Below the pieces are notes generated by a model that was not told the origin of the DNA, did no database searches, and was given only the letters and a program-made list of their open reading frames with translations. A stretch of DNA of 64,000 nt from Pseudomonadota bacterium (GTDB lineage: Bacteria; Pseudomonadota; Gammaproteobacteria; Burkholderiales; SG8-39): positions 19,429-83,428 of the forward strand of contig JAJZPQ010000012.1 in assembly GCA_021811085.1 (NCBI GenBank). The letters run 5' to 3'. This document shows, one piece after another, positions 39,560-51,525 of the stretch (positions are counted from its first letter, which is position 1; each line of letters begins with the position of its first letter). Position numbers and translations under genes: made by a program.

Positions 39560-39690
39560 TCCTTGAACAATGCTTAGCCATCTGATATTTAATGAGTTTT
39601 TGATATGGAATCGGCCTTCGGAACAGTAGTAGCCGTGTCGGCTGGGCATTTCCCGGCCGCAGGATGCACAATCATGCTTGTGGAAGCGCG

Positions 39691-41127
39691 ATGAGCACAA
39701 CACTGCAAAATCTGGTCAACCAGCCCTACCCCCACGGTTTCGTCACCGATATCGAATCCGATGTCGCGCCCAAGGGGCTGAGCGAGGACACGATCCGGCT
39801 GATTTCGGCGAAAAAGAACGAGCCCGAGTGGCTGCTTGAATTCAGGCTCCATGCCTACCGCCAATGGCTCAAGATGGAAGAGCCGCAATGGCCCAACGTG
39901 AAGTACCCGAAAATCGACTTCCAGGCGATCAGCTATTACTCGGCGCCCAAGCCGAAGAAGGCGCTCGCCAGCATGGACGAGATCGATCCCGAATTGCTGC
40001 GCACGTTCGAGAAGCTCGGCGTGCCGATGAACGAGCGTGCGAAGCTCGCCGGCGTCGCGGTCGACGTGATTTTCGACAGTGTATCGGTCGCGACCACCTA
40101 CAAGGCGAAGCTGGCGGAGGTCGGCATCATCTTCTGTTCGATCTCGGAGGCGGTGCACCAGCATCCCGAACTCGTGCGCCAGTACCTCGGCAGCGTGGTG
40201 CCGGTCGGCGACAATTACTACGCCGCGCTCAACTCGGCAGTATTCACCGACGGCTCGTTCTGTTTCATTCCCAAGGGCGTCAAATGCCCGATGGACTTGT
40301 CGACTTATTTCCGCATCAATACCCAGGAATCGGGCCAGTTTGAGCGCACGCTGATCGTGGCCGAGGCGGGCGCGTCGGTGTCCTATCTCGAAGGCTGCAC
40401 CGCGCCCAAGTTCGACACCAACCAGTTGCATGCCGCGGTGGTGGAACTGGTCGCGCTCGATGACGCCGACATCAAGTATTCCACGGTGCAGAACTGGTAC
40501 GCGGGCGACGAGAACGGCCTGGGCGGCATATTCAACTTCGTCACCAAGCGCGGCCTGTGCAAGGGCGTGAATTCGCGCATCTCCTGGACCCAGGTCGAAA
40601 CCGGCTCGGCGATCACCTGGAAATATCCAAGCTGCATTCTGCGCGGCGAGAACTCAATCGGCGAATTCTATTCGGTGGCGCTCACCAATCATCACCAGCA
40701 GGCCGACACCGGCACCAAGATGGTCCATCTGGGCAAGAACACGCGCAGCACCATCGTCAGCAAGGGCATCTCGGCCGGACATTCGAATAACAGCTACCGC
40801 GGCCTCGTGCGCATCGCGCCCACCGCCGCCGGCGCGCGCAATTATTCGCAGTGCGATTCGATGCTGATCGGCGAGCACTGCGGCGCCAACACCTTTCCCT
40901 ATATCCAGGTGAACAACCCCAGCGCCAAGGTCGAGCACGAAGCCTCGACCTCGAAGATCGGCGAGGATCAGCTGTTCTATTTCGCCCAGCGCGGCATCGG
41001 CGCCGAGGAGGCGGTGTCGATGATCATCAACGGGTTCTGCAAGGACGTGTTTCAACAATTGCCGATGGAGTTCGCGGTCGAGGCGACCAAGCTGCTCGGC
41101 CTCAAGCTCGAAGGAAGCGTAGGATGA
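39691..41127 (+). CDS. sufB: Fe-S cluster scaffold component SufB
   Basis: A 478-aa protein from ATG 39691 (GGAAG upstream). Family blocks: [85 protein letters not shown]-type segment (here [22 protein letters not shown]), [11 protein letters not shown], and the C-terminal [33 protein letters not shown] with the Cys used with SufD His as the cluster site. First gene of sufBCDSU-nfu. It is a soluble component of the SufBC2D complex. It overlaps sufC by 4 bases. Confidence 0.97.
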
Positions 41128-41918
41128 TCTATCAGGACAGCAAGACTCTGCTCGCGGTGCGCGATTTGCACGCGAGCGTCAACGGCACCGAAATCCTCAA
41201 GGGCATGGAACTCACGGTCCGGAGCGGCGAGGTGCACGCGATCATGGGGCCAAACGGCTCGGGCAAGAGCACGTTCGCCAAGGTGCTGGCCGGCCATCCG
41301 GCCTACGTCGTCACCGGCGGCGAGGTCGAGTTCGACGGCCGCAGCCTGTTCGAACTCGCGCCCGAGGCGCGCGCGCGCGCAGGCGTGTTCCTCGGCTTCC
41401 AGTACCCGATCGAGATCCCCGGTGTGGCCAACAGCCAGTTCCTGCGGCTCGCCTACAACACGGTGCAGGCCGAGCGCGGCAAGGACGAGCTCGATCCGCT
41501 CGAATTCGACGATTTCGTACGCGAGAAAATGAAACTGCTCGAAATGAATCCGGACTTCCTCGGCCGCAGCGTCAATGAAGGCTTTTCCGGCGGCGAGAAA
41601 AAGCGCAACGAGATCCTGCAGATGGCACTGCTCGAGCCCAAGCTTGCAATCCTCGACGAAACCGATTCCGGTCTGGACATCGACGCGCTCAGGATCGTCG
41701 CCGGCGGCGTCAATCAGCTTTCCAACAAGGACAATGCGATCGTGCTGGTCACGCACTACCAGCGCCTGCTCAATTACATCGCGCCGGACTACGTGCACGT
41801 GATGGAAGCGGGCCGCATCATCAAGACCGGCGGCAAGGAACTCGCGCTCGAACTCGAAGCCCGCGGCTACGACTGGGTCGGCGCCGAAGCCGAGGCGAAC
41901 GCCCGCGCCAGCGCATGA
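41124..41918 (+). CDS. sufC: SUF system ATPase SufC
   Basis: A 264-aa ABC-type ATPase from ATG 41124. Walker A is [18 protein letters not shown], then [20 protein letters not shown] (typical SufC), signature [23 protein letters not shown], Walker [20 protein letters not shown], and the H-loop in [13 protein letters not shown]. It drives conformational change of SufBC2D rather than transport. It is coupled by ATGA overlaps to sufB and sufD. Confidence 0.97.
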
Positions 41919-43201
41919 ATACCGCCACCGGCTATTTAGACGGCCTGCTGCAAGGGCAGCCGCCCGCGAGCGCGCTCTCCTGGCTGAACCAGCTGCGAGC
42001 GAACGCGGTCGATCGGGTCGCCGCGCTGACCGTGCCGACCACGCGCGACGAGGACTGGCGCTTCACCGACATCTCGCCGCTGACCAAGTTTAGTTTCCAG
42101 CCGGCGCAGGAGGCGCAGCCGCTCGCGCCGGCCGCAATCGAACCATGGGCAATCGGCGAAGCCGCAGCGCGGCTGGTGTTCGTCGACGGCATCTACGCAC
42201 CCCAGCATTCGTTCAACCGCAGCGGCATCGCGGTAGAAAATCTTGGCGCAGGGTTCACCAGCCACGCCGCGGCAGTGCAGGCGCAGCTCGGGCGCCTCGC
42301 TGCATTCGAGCGCAACGCTTTCGCCGCGCTCAATACCGCCTTCCTCCACGACGGGGCGCTGATCGTCGTGCCGCGCGAACTGGCGCTGGCGGCACCGGTG
42401 CACCTGCTGTTCATCGCGACGCGCAAGCACGCGGCGAGCTACCCGCGCTGTCTGATCGTTGCGGAACCCGGCAGCAAGCTCACGCTGGTCGAGGATTACG
42501 TCGCGCTGCAGGACGAAGCCTATTTCACCAACGCGGTGACCGAAATTGCGCTGGGCGCCAATGCGCAGGTGCAGCATGTGCGCGTGCAGCGCGACGGCGC
42601 CGAGGCCTTCCATATCGCGAACTGCGCGGTGTCGCTGGCGCGATCGAGCCGCTATCATGCGGTCAGCGTCGCGCTGGGCGCGCGCATCTCGCGCCACAAC
42701 CTCGGCGTGCTGCTCGCGGCCGAAGGCGCCGAGTGCAGCATCGACGGACTCGCGCTGATCGGCGGCCGGCAATTGGCCGATACGCATACGCTGATCGACC
42801 ATGCCCTGCCCCAATGTTCGAGCCGCCAGCTGCATAAATGCATCGTCGACGGCGCGGCGCATGCCGTGTTCAACGGCAACATCATGGTGCGCGCCGGGGC
42901 GCAGCGCACCGATTCCGCGCAATCGAGCCGCAACCTGCTCCTCAGCGGCAAAGCGCGCGTGGACACCAAACCGCAGCTGGAGATCTTCGCCGACGACGTG
43001 AAATGCGCGCACGGCGCGACCGTGGGCCAGCTCGACGTGGACGAAGTGTTCTATCTCAAAAGCCGCGGCCTGTCAGAGACCGCGGCGCGCAATCTGCTCA
43101 CCTACGCCTTCGGCGCCGAAGTCATCGAACGCATCCCCGTGGCCTCGCTTCGGCAGCGCCTGGAAGCCTCGGTGCTGGCGCAGACGGAGCAGCGGCCGTG
43201 A
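41915..43201 (+). CDS. sufD: Fe-S cluster assembly protein SufD
   Basis: A 428-aa protein. The N-terminal helical part ([28 protein letters not shown]) is followed by the beta-helix core: [73 protein letters not shown], and [33 protein letters not shown], which contains the conserved Cys-x-His. It pairs with SufB. The stop overlaps the GTG start of sufS. Confidence 0.95.
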
Positions 43202-44457
43202 GCGCGCGCCAAGGCGCGCTCGCGACCGCCGGCGCAGCGGTGCTCGACATCGCGCGCATCCGCGCCGATTTCCCCATTCTCAACACCAGCCCCGGCGGCA
43301 AGCCGCTCGTCTATCTGGACAACGCGGCCTCGAGCCAGATGCCGCAGCAGGTGATCGAGCGCCTGGTGCGCTACCAGAGCACCCAGCACGCGAACATACA
43401 CCGCGCGGTGCACACGCTGTCGGAGATCGCCACCGCCGAATACGAGGAAGCGCGGCGCAAGCTGGCGCGCTTCGTCAATGCGCGCGAGGAGCGCGAAGTC
43501 ATTTTCACCAGCGGCACCACGGAATCGATCAACCTCGCGATGCACGGCTGGGGGCGCAAATTCATCGGCGCCGGCGACGAAATCATCCTGACCACGCTGG
43601 AGCATCACTCGAACATCGTGCCCTGGCAAATGCTGGCCGAGGAGAAAGGCGCGAACATCCGCGTCGTGCCGATCGACGACGCGGGCGAACTGCAGCTCGG
43701 CGCGTACGAGAAGCTGTTCAACGAGCGCACCCGGCTGGTCGGCGTGGCGCATGTATCCAATGCCCTTGGCACGGTCAATCCGGTCAAGCGCATGATCGCC
43801 TATGCACACGCGCGCGGCGTCCCGGTGCTGGTCGACGGCGCGCAGGCGGCGCCGCACATGAAAGTCGACGTGCGGGATCTCGACTGCGATTTCTACGCAT
43901 TTTCCGGACACAAGCTGTGCGGACCGACTGGCATCGGCGTCCTCTACGGCAAGGCGGCCCTGCTCGAGTCCATGCAACCGTTCAAGGGCGGCGGCGACAT
44001 GATCCTGTCGGTGACGTTCGAGAAAACCCTCTACAACGTGATCCCGCAGAAATTCGAGGCCGGCACCCCGCCGATCGCGGCCGCGATCGGCCTCGGCGCC
44101 GCCGTCGATTACCTCACCGGCATAGGTATGGACGCGATCGCCGCACATGAGCGCGCCTTGCTCGATTACGCGACGCAAAAGCTGGTGCGCTTGCCGGGCC
44201 TGCGCATCATCGGCACCGCCGCCGACAAGGCCGCGGTGCTTTCGTTCACGCTGGCCGGAGTGCACCCGCACGACGTGGGCACGCTGCTCAACGAAGACGG
44301 GGTCGCGGTACGCACCGGCCATCATTGCGCGCAGCCGGTGATGCAGCGTTTCAAGGTGCCGGCGACCTCGCGCGCCTCCTTTGCGTTCTACAACACCATG
44401 GCCGAAGTCGATGCGCTCGCTGCAGGCATCGCCAAGGTGCAAAAAGTTTTTTCCTGA
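43198..44457 (+). CDS. sufS: Cysteine desulfurase SufS
   Basis: A 419-aa group II desulfurase starting with GTG at 43198, overlapping the sufD TGA (GTGA). The track start at 42838 is shadow. Motifs: FPILNTSPGGKPLVYLDNAASSQMPQ, TSGTTESINLA, ILTTLEHHSNIVPWQ, DGAQAAPHMKVDV, PLP Lys in YAFSGHKLCGPTGIGVLYG and catalytic Cys in VRTGHHCAQPVMQRF. It supplies sulfur to SufU/SufBC2D. It is the only complete cysteine desulfurase in the window, since iscS is deleted. Confidence 0.96.
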   Translation: MSARQGALATAGAAVLDIARIRADFPILNTSPGGKPLVYLDNAASSQMPQQVIERLVRYQSTQHANIHRAVHTLSEIATAEYEEARRKLARFVNAREEREVIFTSGTTESINLAMHGWGRKFIGAGDEIILTTLEHHSNIVPWQMLAEEKGANIRVVPIDDAGELQLGAYEKLFNERTRLVGVAHVSNALGTVNPVKRMIAYAHARGVPVLVDGAQAAPHMKVDVRDLDCDFYAFSGHKLCGPTGIGVLYGKAALLESMQPFKGGGDMILSVTFEKTLYNVIPQKFEAGTPPIAAAIGLGAAVDYLTGIGMDAIAAHERALLDYATQKLVRLPGLRIIGTAADKAAVLSFTLAGVHPHDVGTLLNEDGVAVRTGHHCAQPVMQRFKVPATSRASFAFYNTMAEVDALAAGIAKVQKVFS

Positions 44458-44470
44458 AGGTATTTTACTG

Positions 44471-44959
44471 ATGTCCGACCCGAAATCGCTGTATCAGGAA
44501 GTGATCCTCGATCACAACCGCAAACCGCGCAATTGGGGTGCGCTGGCGCAGGCGAGCCACAAGGCCGAAGGCCACAACCCGCTGTGCGGCGACCATCTGC
44601 ACGTGGAACTGAATGTCGAGGCCGACCGCATCGCCGCAATCGCGTTCGAAGGCGAATCCTGCGCGATCTGCAAGGCGTCGGCATCGATGATGACGACGAA
44701 CGTCAAGGGCAAGACGGTGCAGGATGCGGAAACCCTGATCCAGGAGTTTCGCGACATGGCGACCGGCCAGCTCGACACCGAAACACAGGCGCACCATCTC
44801 GGTCGGCTCACCGTGTTCGCCGGCGTGCGCGATCTGCCCACGCGCGTCAAATGCGCGATCCTGCCCTGGCACACGCTGCATGCGGCGCTGCACTCGGTCG
44901 CGGATACTTCGACCGAATCCGACAATGACCCGATGCACGCGCCGATCGGCGATGCGTAA
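44471..44959 (+). CDS. sufU: SufU-type zinc-dependent sulfur transfer protein
   Basis: A 162-aa protein from ATG 44471. It has the IscU-like fold with LYQEVILDHNRKPRNWG, first Cys and Asp in HNPLCGDHLHVELNV, second Cys in FEGESCAICKASASMM and third in RVKCAILPWHTLHAAL. The insertion between the second and third Cys (VQDAETLIQEFRDMATG...) and absence of the LPPVK motif identify SufU rather than IscU. SufU takes persulfide from SufS. It sits 13 bases after sufS, replacing the SufE partner of E. coli. Confidence 0.94.
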   Translation: MSDPKSLYQEVILDHNRKPRNWGALAQASHKAEGHNPLCGDHLHVELNVEADRIAAIAFEGESCAICKASASMMTTNVKGKTVQDAETLIQEFRDMATGQLDTETQAHHLGRLTVFAGVRDLPTRVKCAILPWHTLHAALHSVADTSTESDNDPMHAPIGDA

Positions 44960-44971
44960 ACGAAGCTTGCC

Positions 44972-45535
44972 ATGCCGAAAATAGCCGACATCGAAGACAC
45001 GCCGAATCCGAACGCGAAGAAGTTCATCCTCAAGGAGCCGCTCACCTGGGGCATCGCGCGCTCCTACGACAATGCGCGCGAGGCCGAGGAAGATCTACTG
45101 GCGGCGTCGATATTCGACATCGAGCACGTGACCAACGTGTTCTACGTCGACCACTGGCTCACGGTCACCCAGGACGGCCGCGCCGACTGGCCGGAACTGC
45201 TGCGCCGGGTCGCAGAGCGGGTCCGCGCAGCACCGGCGGCGAGCGAGCAATCCGCTCAGCTCGCCTCCGCGGCCGCCGCGGTCCCGATGAGCGAAATGAG
45301 CGCCGACGATCAGCAACGCCTCTATATGATCAACGGACTTCTGGACGAGCAGATCCGCCCCTACCTGCAAGGCGACGGCGGCGACCTGCACGTACTCGCG
45401 CTCGAAGGCAACCGGCTGACCGTGCATTACCAGGGGGCCTGCGGCAGCTGCCCCAGCTCCCTGTCGGGTACGCTGGTCGGCATCGAGCATCTGCTGCGGA
45501 CGATAGAACCCGATATCGAAGTGGTGGCAGTCTAG
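44972..45535 (+). CDS. NifU-like (Nfu) Fe-S carrier protein
   Basis: A 187-aa protein. The N-terminal Nfu_N domain begins IEDTPNPNAKKFILKEPLTWG and continues through AASIFDIEHVTNVFYVDHWLTVTQDGRADW. A flexible Ala/Ser linker runs over about 85-115, then the NifU C-terminal domain IRPYLQGDGGDLHVLALEGNRLTVHYQGACGSCPSSL with the CxxC cluster pair. It is the probable carrier that passes clusters from SufBC2D to targets. Last gene of the suf operon, 12 bases after sufU. Confidence 0.93.
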   Translation: MPKIADIEDTPNPNAKKFILKEPLTWGIARSYDNAREAEEDLLAASIFDIEHVTNVFYVDHWLTVTQDGRADWPELLRRVAERVRAAPAASEQSAQLASAAAAVPMSEMSADDQQRLYMINGLLDEQIRPYLQGDGGDLHVLALEGNRLTVHYQGACGSCPSSLSGTLVGIEHLLRTIEPDIEVVAV

Positions 45536-45632
45536 TCGGCTGTCACCTGCAGCATTCCTTGCGCCCCGTAGGCCAGCGCCATCCGGCGAAGTGCAGCGCG
45601 CCGGATCGCCGCACGCCCGATTTCAGTGTTCC

Positions 45633-45646
45633 TTGATCAAAGTCAC
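45633..45646. promoter_or_regulatory. Weak FNR-like box upstream of dnaK-like gene
   Basis: TTGATCAAAGTCAC: perfect left half, 3 of 5 in the right half (8 of 10 overall). It is 80 bases before the dnaK start. Listed because it resembles four other boxes in the window; alone it would not be called. Confidence 0.25.
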
Positions 45647-45726
45647 ACTGCTCGGACATCGGAATCGCTTCAATGTATCTGTGCCGGCACGCGCGGTTGC
45701 GCGCATACGGCCGGCAAGGAGCGTTT

Positions 45727-47622
45727 ATGGCCATCATCGGCATCGATCTCGGCACCTCGAATTCCGCCGCTGCGGTACTGCGCGGCGGGCGTCCGGTCAT
45801 CATTCCCAGCGCCGAAGGCATCAGCATCGGCGGCAAGGCCTTCCCCAGCTACGTTGCGTTGACGGCGGACGGCCAGATGCTGGTGGGCGAGCCGGCGCGG
45901 CGACAGGCCGCGGCTAACCCGGAAGGCACGGCCAGCGCGTTCAAGCGCAGGATGGGCCGGCGCGAAAGCATACGCCTGAGGGAGCGCGAGTATTCGCCGG
46001 AGCAGCTCTCGGCCTTCCTGCTGCAGAAAATCAAACGCGACGCGGAAGCTTTCCTGGGCGAGCCGGTGCAGAAAGCGGTCGTCACCGTGCCTGCGTATTT
46101 CGACGACAACCAGCGCGCCGCCACCAAGGACGCCTGCCGCATCGCCGGCCTGGAAGTAGTGCGCCTGGTCAACGAACCGACTGCGGCCTCGCTCGCCTAC
46201 GGCCTCGACCGCCTGGGCGAGGAACTGCGCATCGTGGTGATCGACCTCGGGGGCGGAACCCTGGATGTCACCATCATGGAATTCGGCAAAGGCGTGTTCG
46301 AGGTCAAAGCCACCAGCGGCGACACTCAACTCGGCGGCACCGACATGAATCAGCGCATTTTCGAGCACCTCGCCGAACGCTTCCAGATGTCTACCGGCAT
46401 CGATGTGCGCAACGACCGCAAGGCCGCCGCGCGCCTGATCGAAGCCGCCGAAGCCGCCAAGATCGAACTCACCACCAGCATGAGCACCCATATCAGCCTG
46501 CCCTATCTCGCTGCGGCGCAGGGCGAGCCGCGCCATCTGGAACTGGACCTCAATCGCACCGAACTCGAGCGCCTGGTGCGGCCGGTGATCGAGCGTTGCC
46601 GCGCCCCGGTGGAACAGGCCCTGCACGATGCCGGCATCGCCCCGCGCGACGTGGGGCGCGTGGTGTTCGTCGGCGGACCGACGCGTATGCCCGTGGTGCG
46701 CGCGTATTTCGAGGAGCTGTTCGGACGCAAGGCGGAGATGGGCGTGGACCCGATGGAATGCGTCGCCGCCGGCGCCGCGATTCAGGCCGGCGTGCTCGCG
46801 GGCGAAGTCGGCGGCATCGTGCTCGTGGACGTGACGCCGCTCACGCTGGGTGTGGAAACGCTGGGCGGCATCGCCACCGCGCTGATCGCGCGCAACACGC
46901 CGATCCCGGTCAAGCGCAGCGAGACGTTCACCACCGCTGCCGACATGCAGACCAGCGTCACCATCCATGTGTTCCAGGGCGAGCGGCCGATGGCGGGAGA
47001 CAACACCAGCCTGGGCGAATTCAATCTGGACGGTCTGCCGCCGGCGCCGCGCGGTATTCCCAAGATCGAAGTGAGCTTCGACATTGACTCCAACGGCATA
47101 CTCAGCGTTTCCGCACGCGATACGGCCAGCGGCAAATCGCAGTCCATCAGCATCAGCGGTTCCACCCGGCTGTCCGAGGAGGATAAGAAGCGCATGGTGC
47201 AGGACGCCGAGCGCTACGCCGACGCGGACAAGAAGCGGCGCGAGGATGCGGAAAAACTCAATGCCGCCGACGCCGCCTGCTACGAGGCCGAGAAAATGCT
47301 GGCGAACTTCGCCGACAAACTCACCGATGAGCTGAAGCGGCGCATCGAGAGCGCCGCGCGCGAGACCAAGGAGGCGCTGCTCAAGAAAGACGTGGCGCTC
47401 GCCAGCGAACGCGCCGAAGCGCTGAAGAAACTGCTGAAAGAGGCAGGAGCAGTGCTCTATGCGCAATCGGGACAGGCGCCGAAAAGCGGTCCGTATGCGG
47501 AAACGCGCTGGGATGGGCCGCAGCCACAGCCGAATGTGGGCGAGCCCGGCGGGCAGGCGCGCCCCAGCGGCTCCGGGCCGCGCGGCAAGGTGGTGGATGC
47601 CGAATACGAAGAGCACAAGTAA
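45727..47622 (+). CDS. dnaK: Hsp70 chaperone, DnaK-like (second copy type)
   Basis: A 631-aa protein from ATG 45727 (AAGGAG upstream). ATPase motifs: [103 protein letters not shown]. The substrate domain starts at [15 protein letters not shown], and the lid ends ...[12 protein letters not shown]. The [13 protein letters not shown] opening differs from canonical DnaK (GTTNS), typical of accessory DnaK2-type chaperones. It follows the suf operon and is paired with dnaJ. It is not HscA by its C-terminus. Confidence 0.92.
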
Positions 47623-47645
47623 GGCCGCGAACCGGGAGCGCCGCC

Positions 47646-48752
47646 ATTTCCGCAACTGCCCAGCGCGACTATTACGAGGTGCTAGGCGTCTCCAAAAACG
47701 CCGACGAGAAGGCGATCAAGGACGCTTTCCGCAATCTCGCCCTGAAATATCACCCGGACAGGAATAAGGAGCCAGGTGCGGAGGAGCGCTTCAAAGGCAT
47801 CGCCGAGGCCTATGCGGTTCTGTCCGACCCGAAGAAGCGCGCCGAATACGATGCGCGCGGATTCGCCGGTGTGGCCGGCTTCAGCAAGGAGGATTTGTTC
47901 GGCGGCATCAATTTCGAGGATATCTTCGGCGGCCTCAATTTCGATTTTGGAGGGTTCAGTCCGTTCGAAGGTTTTTTCCGCCGCCGCAGGGGTCCGCCGC
48001 GCGGCGCCAACATCGAAGTGGATCTTTTCGTTCCGCTGGAAAAAGTGGCCAGCGGCGGCGAGGAGAAGGTTCGTCTCGGTCGTCCGGCCGCCTGCGCGGC
48101 CTGCCATGGCACGGGCGCCGAAGGCGGGACCGCAGCGCGCACCTGCAAGCAATGCGGCGGCAGCGGCCGCATCACCCGCAGCCAGCAGGAAAAAAAAGAG
48201 CATGTCCTGATACAGCAGATCAGCACCTGCCCTGCCTGCCGCGGTCGCGGCAGCATCATCGACCGCCCCTGCCCGAAATGCGGCGGCAGCGGCGAAGTGG
48301 AGAAAGAAGAGGAACTCACGGTCAAAATCCCCCAAGGCGTAGAGGAAGGCATGGCGCTGCGCATTCCGGGCAAAGGGATGCCGAGCCCGGAGGCAGGCGG
48401 CACGACCGGAGATCTGTTCGTGGTCGTGCGCTCGCGGCGCGATCCGCGCTTTGAGCGCGCCGGGGCCGACCTGCTGCGCGAGGAAACCATCTCGCTCACC
48501 GATGCGGTGCTGGGCGCCACGCTGGAGGTGCCGACGCTGAGCGGTTCGGCCAGCGTCGGCATACCGCCCGGAACTCAGCCCGGCGCGGTATTGCGGCTCA
48601 AGGGAAAAGGTCTGCCCGAATTCGGCAATGCGCGCCATGGCGAACTGTACTTGCGCATTGAAGTCCGGGTGCCGGAGCGGCTTACGCGCGAAGAGCGCGA
48701 ACTGTACGAGCGGCTGCGCGCGCTCCAGCGTTCGAAGCCCGCAGCAGCATAG
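47646..48752 (+). CDS. dnaJ: DnaJ co-chaperone with probable ATT start
   Basis: J domain: [18 protein letters not shown]...[19 protein letters not shown] (HPD present); Gly/Phe-rich segment [20 protein letters not shown]; four CxxCxGxG zinc motifs ([32 protein letters not shown]); C-terminal client domains with [15 protein letters not shown]. The track starts at GTG 47679, which would remove RDYYE of the J-domain first helix. No ATG, GTG or TTG lies in frame between the dnaK stop and 47679. ATT at 47646 has GGGAG 7 bases upstream and gives [16 protein letters not shown], 368 aa. Confidence 0.9.
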
Positions 48753-51135: not shown

Positions 51136-51525
51136 ATGAAATTCGCGCAAATATTGGCGGTATTCGCGGCGCTCACGCTGTCGATCGGGAACGTTATGGC
51201 GGTTCCGCCGGGCAAGACGGTGGAGTTTGCCAGCCCCATGGGCAAGGTGACATTCGATGGCAAGGCACATGCGGACAAAGGCTTGAAATGCGCCGACTGC
51301 CACAGCAAGCCCAAGCTGTTCGAAATGAAAAAAGGCGGCGACAAGATCAACATGGCTGCAATGAACGACGGCAAGTTCTGCGGCACCTGCCATGACGGCA
51401 ACAAGGCTTTCAGCGTCAAGGCGCCGGACAGTTGCGTGAAATGCCACAAGAAGGATGACGCAGGCGCGGCCGGCGGCGGCGGCGGCGGCGGAACCGGGGG
51501 CAAAGGCGACGCGCCGAAGAATTAA
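51136..51525 (+). CDS. Small periplasmic triheme cytochrome (c7-type)
   Basis: A 129-aa protein from ATG 51136. The signal peptide is MKFAQILAVFAALTLSIGNVMA. Three haem c motifs follow: CADCH, CGTCH and CVKCH. Extra His residues (HADKGLKCADCH) could provide distal ligands, as in c7 cytochromes. The C-terminus is a flexible Gly-rich tail (GGGGGGGTGGKGDAPKN). It probably shuttles electrons in the periplasm. Partner unknown; followed by a clear terminator, so it is monocistronic. Confidence 0.9.
   Translation: MKFAQILAVFAALTLSIGNVMAVPPGKTVEFASPMGKVTFDGKAHADKGLKCADCHSKPKLFEMKKGGDKINMAAMNDGKFCGTCHDGNKAFSVKAPDSCVKCHKKDDAGAAGGGGGGGTGGKGDAPKN

Follow-up and report, generated by a model that had tools for sequence, protein, structure and literature searches.

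An accessory dnaJ gene with a conserved AUU start codon

We describe an accessory dnaJ gene that is almost certainly translated from a genuine AUU start codon, a start that would keep DnaJ output low and probably sensitive to IF3. The gene lies at positions 47646–48752 of the forward strand of the window, i.e., the whole stretch of 64,000 nucleotides analyzed here, which is taken from a draft genome of 4.48 Mb in 148 contigs. Its 368 codons specify a J domain, a G/F region, a zinc region with four CxxCxGxG motifs (PF00684) and the DnaJ C-terminal domain (PF01556), the same domain architecture as in canonical bacterial DnaJ (TIGR02349), which differs in that nearly all of its genes start with ATG. 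The window gene is an accessory, second DnaJ rather than the housekeeping copy. The genome also carries a canonical dnaJ, which is 46% identical to it, and the window protein scores 364.2 bits against the bacterial DnaJ equivalog model TIGR02349, below the cut-off of 377.2, and 348.7 against the looser subfamily model NF008035, above the cut-off of 338.

Directly upstream, dnaK (45727–47622, forward strand, 631 aa) starts with ATG preceded by AAGGAG and ends with a TAA at 47620–47622, which is located 23 bases 5′ of the dnaJ ATT and in a different frame. The dnaJ frame itself is open from an in-frame stop within dnaK, 318 bases 5′ of the ATT. A scan of this frame from that stop to the GTG at 47679–47681 revealed no ATG, GTG or TTG, in agreement with the sequence-only reading, which had claimed that none occurs between the dnaK stop and this first in-frame GTG. 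Likewise, the 60 bases preceding the codons for the DYY residues of the J domain contain no ATG in any frame. The same reading had placed the start at the ATT at 47646–47648, with a GGGAG seven bases upstream, and both this assignment and its gene coordinates proved correct: the Shine-Dalgarno sequence occupies 47634–47638 (aligned spacing 5).

The first in-frame GTG lies within helix I of the J domain, inside the RDYYEV motif. When the protein is read from the ATT at 47646, including its first 15 residues, PF00226 (DnaJ domain) matches residues 8–69 over profile positions 1–63 of 63, so that the J-domain N-terminus is indeed encoded 5′ of the GTG, and a complete J domain is obtained only with translation from ATT. 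Since this domain begins at residue 8, a GTG start would cut it.

ATT or ATC is conserved at the start of orthologous genes

To define the orthologs, genome contigs and several related groups were scanned, which yielded 52 distinct loci with at least 50% identity. The aligned start codon is ATT in 26 and ATC in seven of these, the window gene included, so that ATT or ATC is found in 32 other orthologous loci, and the remaining 19 carry ATG, GTG or TTG. As the sole candidate start, ATT/ATC thus occurs at 33 of the 52 loci, compared with none of 73 paralogs, a difference beyond what chance would give. Two loci counted as ATT, L041 and L060, have a GTG upstream in frame (L060 also an ATG), but this GTG belongs to an AAGGTG Shine-Dalgarno sequence; in L156, where our script picked a GTG, translation more probably starts at an ATG four codons upstream. 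Besides many assembled genomes, the ATT carriers include the cultured strains Nitrosomonas sp. Nm33, N. communis Nm44 and Nm132.

The DYY residues, which are encoded 5′ of the GTG position, are invariant in all 33 ATT/ATC genes, and both synonymous codons are used for D and for each Y. Of the 33 genes, 25 have an in-frame stop 18–60 bases 5′ of the DYY codons, and we therefore rejected a start farther upstream. The only near-cognate codons common to all 33 are the ATT/ATC, at the expected Shine-Dalgarno distance. The GTG is not conserved; in five of the 33 genes the codon is GTC, GTA or ACG. Because the DYY codons vary only synonymously, in-frame stops lie upstream and the GTG is not conserved, translation must start at ATT/ATC. 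An untranslated upstream stretch followed by initiation at GTG 47679 has in its favor that no conventional start codon precedes this GTG in frame; it would lose J-domain positions 1–4 and is refuted by the codon pattern, which leaves it extremely improbable.

An alignment with relatives had been named by the sequence-only reading as a check on its start codon, and ATT is found there too. An ATG misread as ATT is conceivable in a draft assembly of this kind, but the same codon was recovered independently in more than 30 genomes, among them the three Nitrosomonas isolates, so that a sequencing or assembly error can be dismissed. Altogether, conservation in relatives, synonymous variation downstream, in-frame stops upstream and the conserved Shine-Dalgarno spacing make it nearly certain, at the level of comparative sequence analysis, that ATT is the true and conserved dnaJ start.

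In 22 of the 33 orthologs another ATT or ATC codon immediately precedes the start, giving the tandem forms ATC-ATT, ATT-ATT and ATC-ATC (in L006, L035, L044, L046, L047, L093 and others). If the second codon of such a pair is the dnaJ start, the first one is untranslated leader.

As controls we inspected other genes of these bacteria. In the same or related genomes, 71 of 73 paralogous dnaJ/cbpA genes start with ATG, the other two having TTG and GTG, and all nine partner dnaK genes with a readable start use ATG. The start codon of infC could be read in 21 genomes of this clade and is ATA or ATC in all of them, with ATC in the window genome. Thus, near-cognate starts work in these bacteria, and they are not a general habit of chaperone genes. 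Wherever it could be read in L179 and L157–L178, the infC start is never ATG.

Evolution of the start codon

On a tree of 46 rows, whose gammaproteobacterial outgroups carry ATG, the ATT/ATC state requires six changes. This pattern reads as one gain from ATG ancestors in a betaproteobacterial clade and about five losses. Of these, three led to ATG (L090, L043 and, as a single event, the group L091/L053/L110), one to GTG (L049) and one to TTG (L036). A switch from AUG to AUU has been recorded only once among 61,358 ancestral AUG starts in closely related genome groups, and ordinary non-AUG starts tend to return to AUG (PMC5622118).

Among the 33 ATT/ATC genes, ATT is observed 26 times versus 6.8 times predicted from the Ile codons inside the same genes. 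At the third base of the start codon T reaches a frequency of 0.60, which exceeds the value of each of the 81 four-fold columns examined (maximum 0.41). By these measures AUU is preferred over AUC at the dnaJ start. The retention of T plus C at the third base shows no excess over simulated neutral drift (P=0.39–0.54), and changes between purine and pyrimidine number five at this position versus an average of 5.5 at four-fold sites, i.e., they occur at the neutral rate. Since third-base changes to G proceed at about this rate, we do not claim selection against ATG as proven; judged from the alignment, active selection against AUG is likely.

The neutral rate is also what would be expected if the AUU, although the true start, had no regulatory role and were a tolerated relic. 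In this view, the accessory gene is non-essential and requires no more than low expression, and its strong Shine-Dalgarno sequence compensates for the codon. We consider this main rival unlikely. Most lineages have kept ATT/ATC, so that a drift to AUG does not appear to be favored at this start, unlike at ordinary non-AUG starts (PMC5622118), and the strong over-representation of T relative to both Ile codon usage and four-fold sites likewise speaks against a mere relic. Further observations that would suit a relic are given below with the distribution of the gene and its Shine-Dalgarno context.

Distribution and gene neighborhood

The dnaJ ortholog has a patchy distribution, being present in about 23 of 158 genomes of the family and absent from all 13 genomes of the same genus that were examined; most of the listed carriers also have a second, canonical dnaJ. 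Such patchiness would fit a dispensable gene whose start codon is a tolerated relic. In the window, the dnaK-dnaJ pair directly follows a suf iron-sulfur cluster (39664–48752 in total). The sufD beside the pair has copies of 83–88% identity in genomes of the same genus from which this dnaJ is missing, which suggests that the dnaK-dnaJ pair was gained in this lineage. The same identity values led us to reject a mis-binned contig. No dnaJ orthologs were found in a search of plasmids. Further downstream, at 51139–51525, lies the gene of a small protein that is predicted to be secreted and carries three CxxCH heme-binding motifs; this gene adjoins that of a P-type cation ATPase on the opposite strand.

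The gene upstream of dnaJ is dnaK in the window, L035, L038, L042 and most outgroups, and a LonB-like AAA_32 protease gene in most Gallionellaceae; in Nitrosomonas it is unrelated, or no gene is close. These differences indicate that the start codon belongs to this dnaJ and not to one operon. The sequence-only reading had also suggested a control of DnaJ synthesis from a dnaK-dnaJ message. Such an arrangement is not general: many ATT/ATC relatives have the LonB-like protease or an unrelated gene in place of dnaK, and since ATT/ATC is kept next to other upstream genes, a device that sets the DnaK:DnaJ ratio cannot be the common reason for it.

The close spacing of dnaK and dnaJ in the window raises the possibility that DnaJ is made mainly by ribosomes that terminate on dnaK and reinitiate, which would ease the need for a cognate start. 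The TAA of the upstream protease gene even overlaps the dnaJ ATT in L107 and L052 (ATTAA). However, the upstream gene varies among the groups, and Nitrosomonas L047, L048 and L050 either have no close same-strand upstream gene or have one that ends at least 120 bases away, and still use ATT with a Shine-Dalgarno sequence. Reinitiation as the main route is therefore improbable; coupling to the translation of dnaK may contribute to dnaJ expression in the window but cannot be general.

In L044 and other Gallionellaceae, dnaJ is located between the genes of the LonB-like AAA_32 protease and a protein-isoaspartate methyltransferase, and at other loci it lies beside hsp20, a neighborhood of protein repair.

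Shine-Dalgarno strength and RNA structure at the start

The median anti-Shine-Dalgarno pairing energy is −6.6 kcal/mol for members with ATT/ATC versus −3.1 kcal/mol for those with ATG/GTG/TTG (P=3e-4, kinship ignored). A phylogenetically independent test of this contrast comprised only five independent pairs and lacked power. The paralogs, with a median of −2.8 kcal/mol, also pair more weakly than the ATT/ATC members. A stronger Shine-Dalgarno sequence in ATT/ATC members is what compensation of a relic start would produce as well. In six species, the RNA fold at the start did not stand out from that of shuffled sequence (z −0.35 to 1.19), and with these values we do not claim a thermometer-like hairpin at the dnaJ start.

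Discussion

AUU and AUC are among the start codons against which IF3 discriminates. From the behavior of such starts, and given the ATA/ATC starts of infC in the same genomes, low DnaJ output and dependence on IF3, as proposed by the sequence-only reading, are plausible. In our model, the good Shine-Dalgarno sequence would place the ribosome on the dnaJ start, where the ordinary initiator tRNA would initiate on the near-cognate AUU. IF3 would destabilize this near-cognate initiation and thereby keep DnaJ output low, and output would increase under a shortage of IF3 or with an IF3 that discriminates less. The AUU start would have arisen once from ATG in the betaproteobacterial lineage and would have persisted while the gene spread horizontally and its upstream neighbor changed. 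More tentatively, the betaproteobacterial accessory dnaJ may represent a clade-wide IF3-gated chaperone, in which AUU/AUC, often as tandem AUY-AUY, has been selected so that synthesis tracks the ratio of IF3 to 30S; this broader version is possible, and we hold it with less confidence than the reading of a genuine, probably IF3-sensitive start.

To our knowledge, very few bacterial genes have a conserved AUU/AUC start, and on the comparative data this dnaJ extends the short list of genes with conserved near-cognate starts. A literature search, which covered few subscription papers, retrieved none that pairs dnaJ with an AUU/ATT start. The IF3 gene infC, which is autoregulated by IF3 through an AUU, AUC or AUA start, shares with the window dnaJ the near-cognate start class and the Shine-Dalgarno sequence; infC encodes the discriminating factor itself, resulting in a feedback loop, whereas DnaJ does not. 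Repression of non-canonical starts by IF3 has been worked out for the ATT of infC and the GTC of Streptomyces sigR (PMC5472188). Like dnaJ, sigR is a stress-response gene that combines a conserved near-cognate start with a strong Shine-Dalgarno sequence, and its start lets a partner be in excess (PMC5472188). It differs in that the codon is GTC instead of ATT, that conservation is within one genus (32 of 34 species), and that its repression by IF3 is experimental, compared with a predicted one for dnaJ. The pncA gene of Borrelia burgdorferi (bbe22) also has an AUU start, which was mis-annotated for years, with databases listing a truncated protein that misses the needed N-terminus; in contrast to dnaJ, this concerns a single organism and not a chaperone, and cross-family conservation is not described (PMC13398362).

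Automatic annotation restricted to ATG, GTG and TTG would cut short the J domain in this accessory dnaJ family. With a chaperone AUU/AUC start kept in about thirty species of several families, and ATG-starting relatives as natural controls, the dnaJ group is a good test case for a regulatory role of near-cognate starts. If the idea of an IF3-gated chaperone holds true, it would provide a link, beyond infC itself, between the state of the ribosome and protein quality control.
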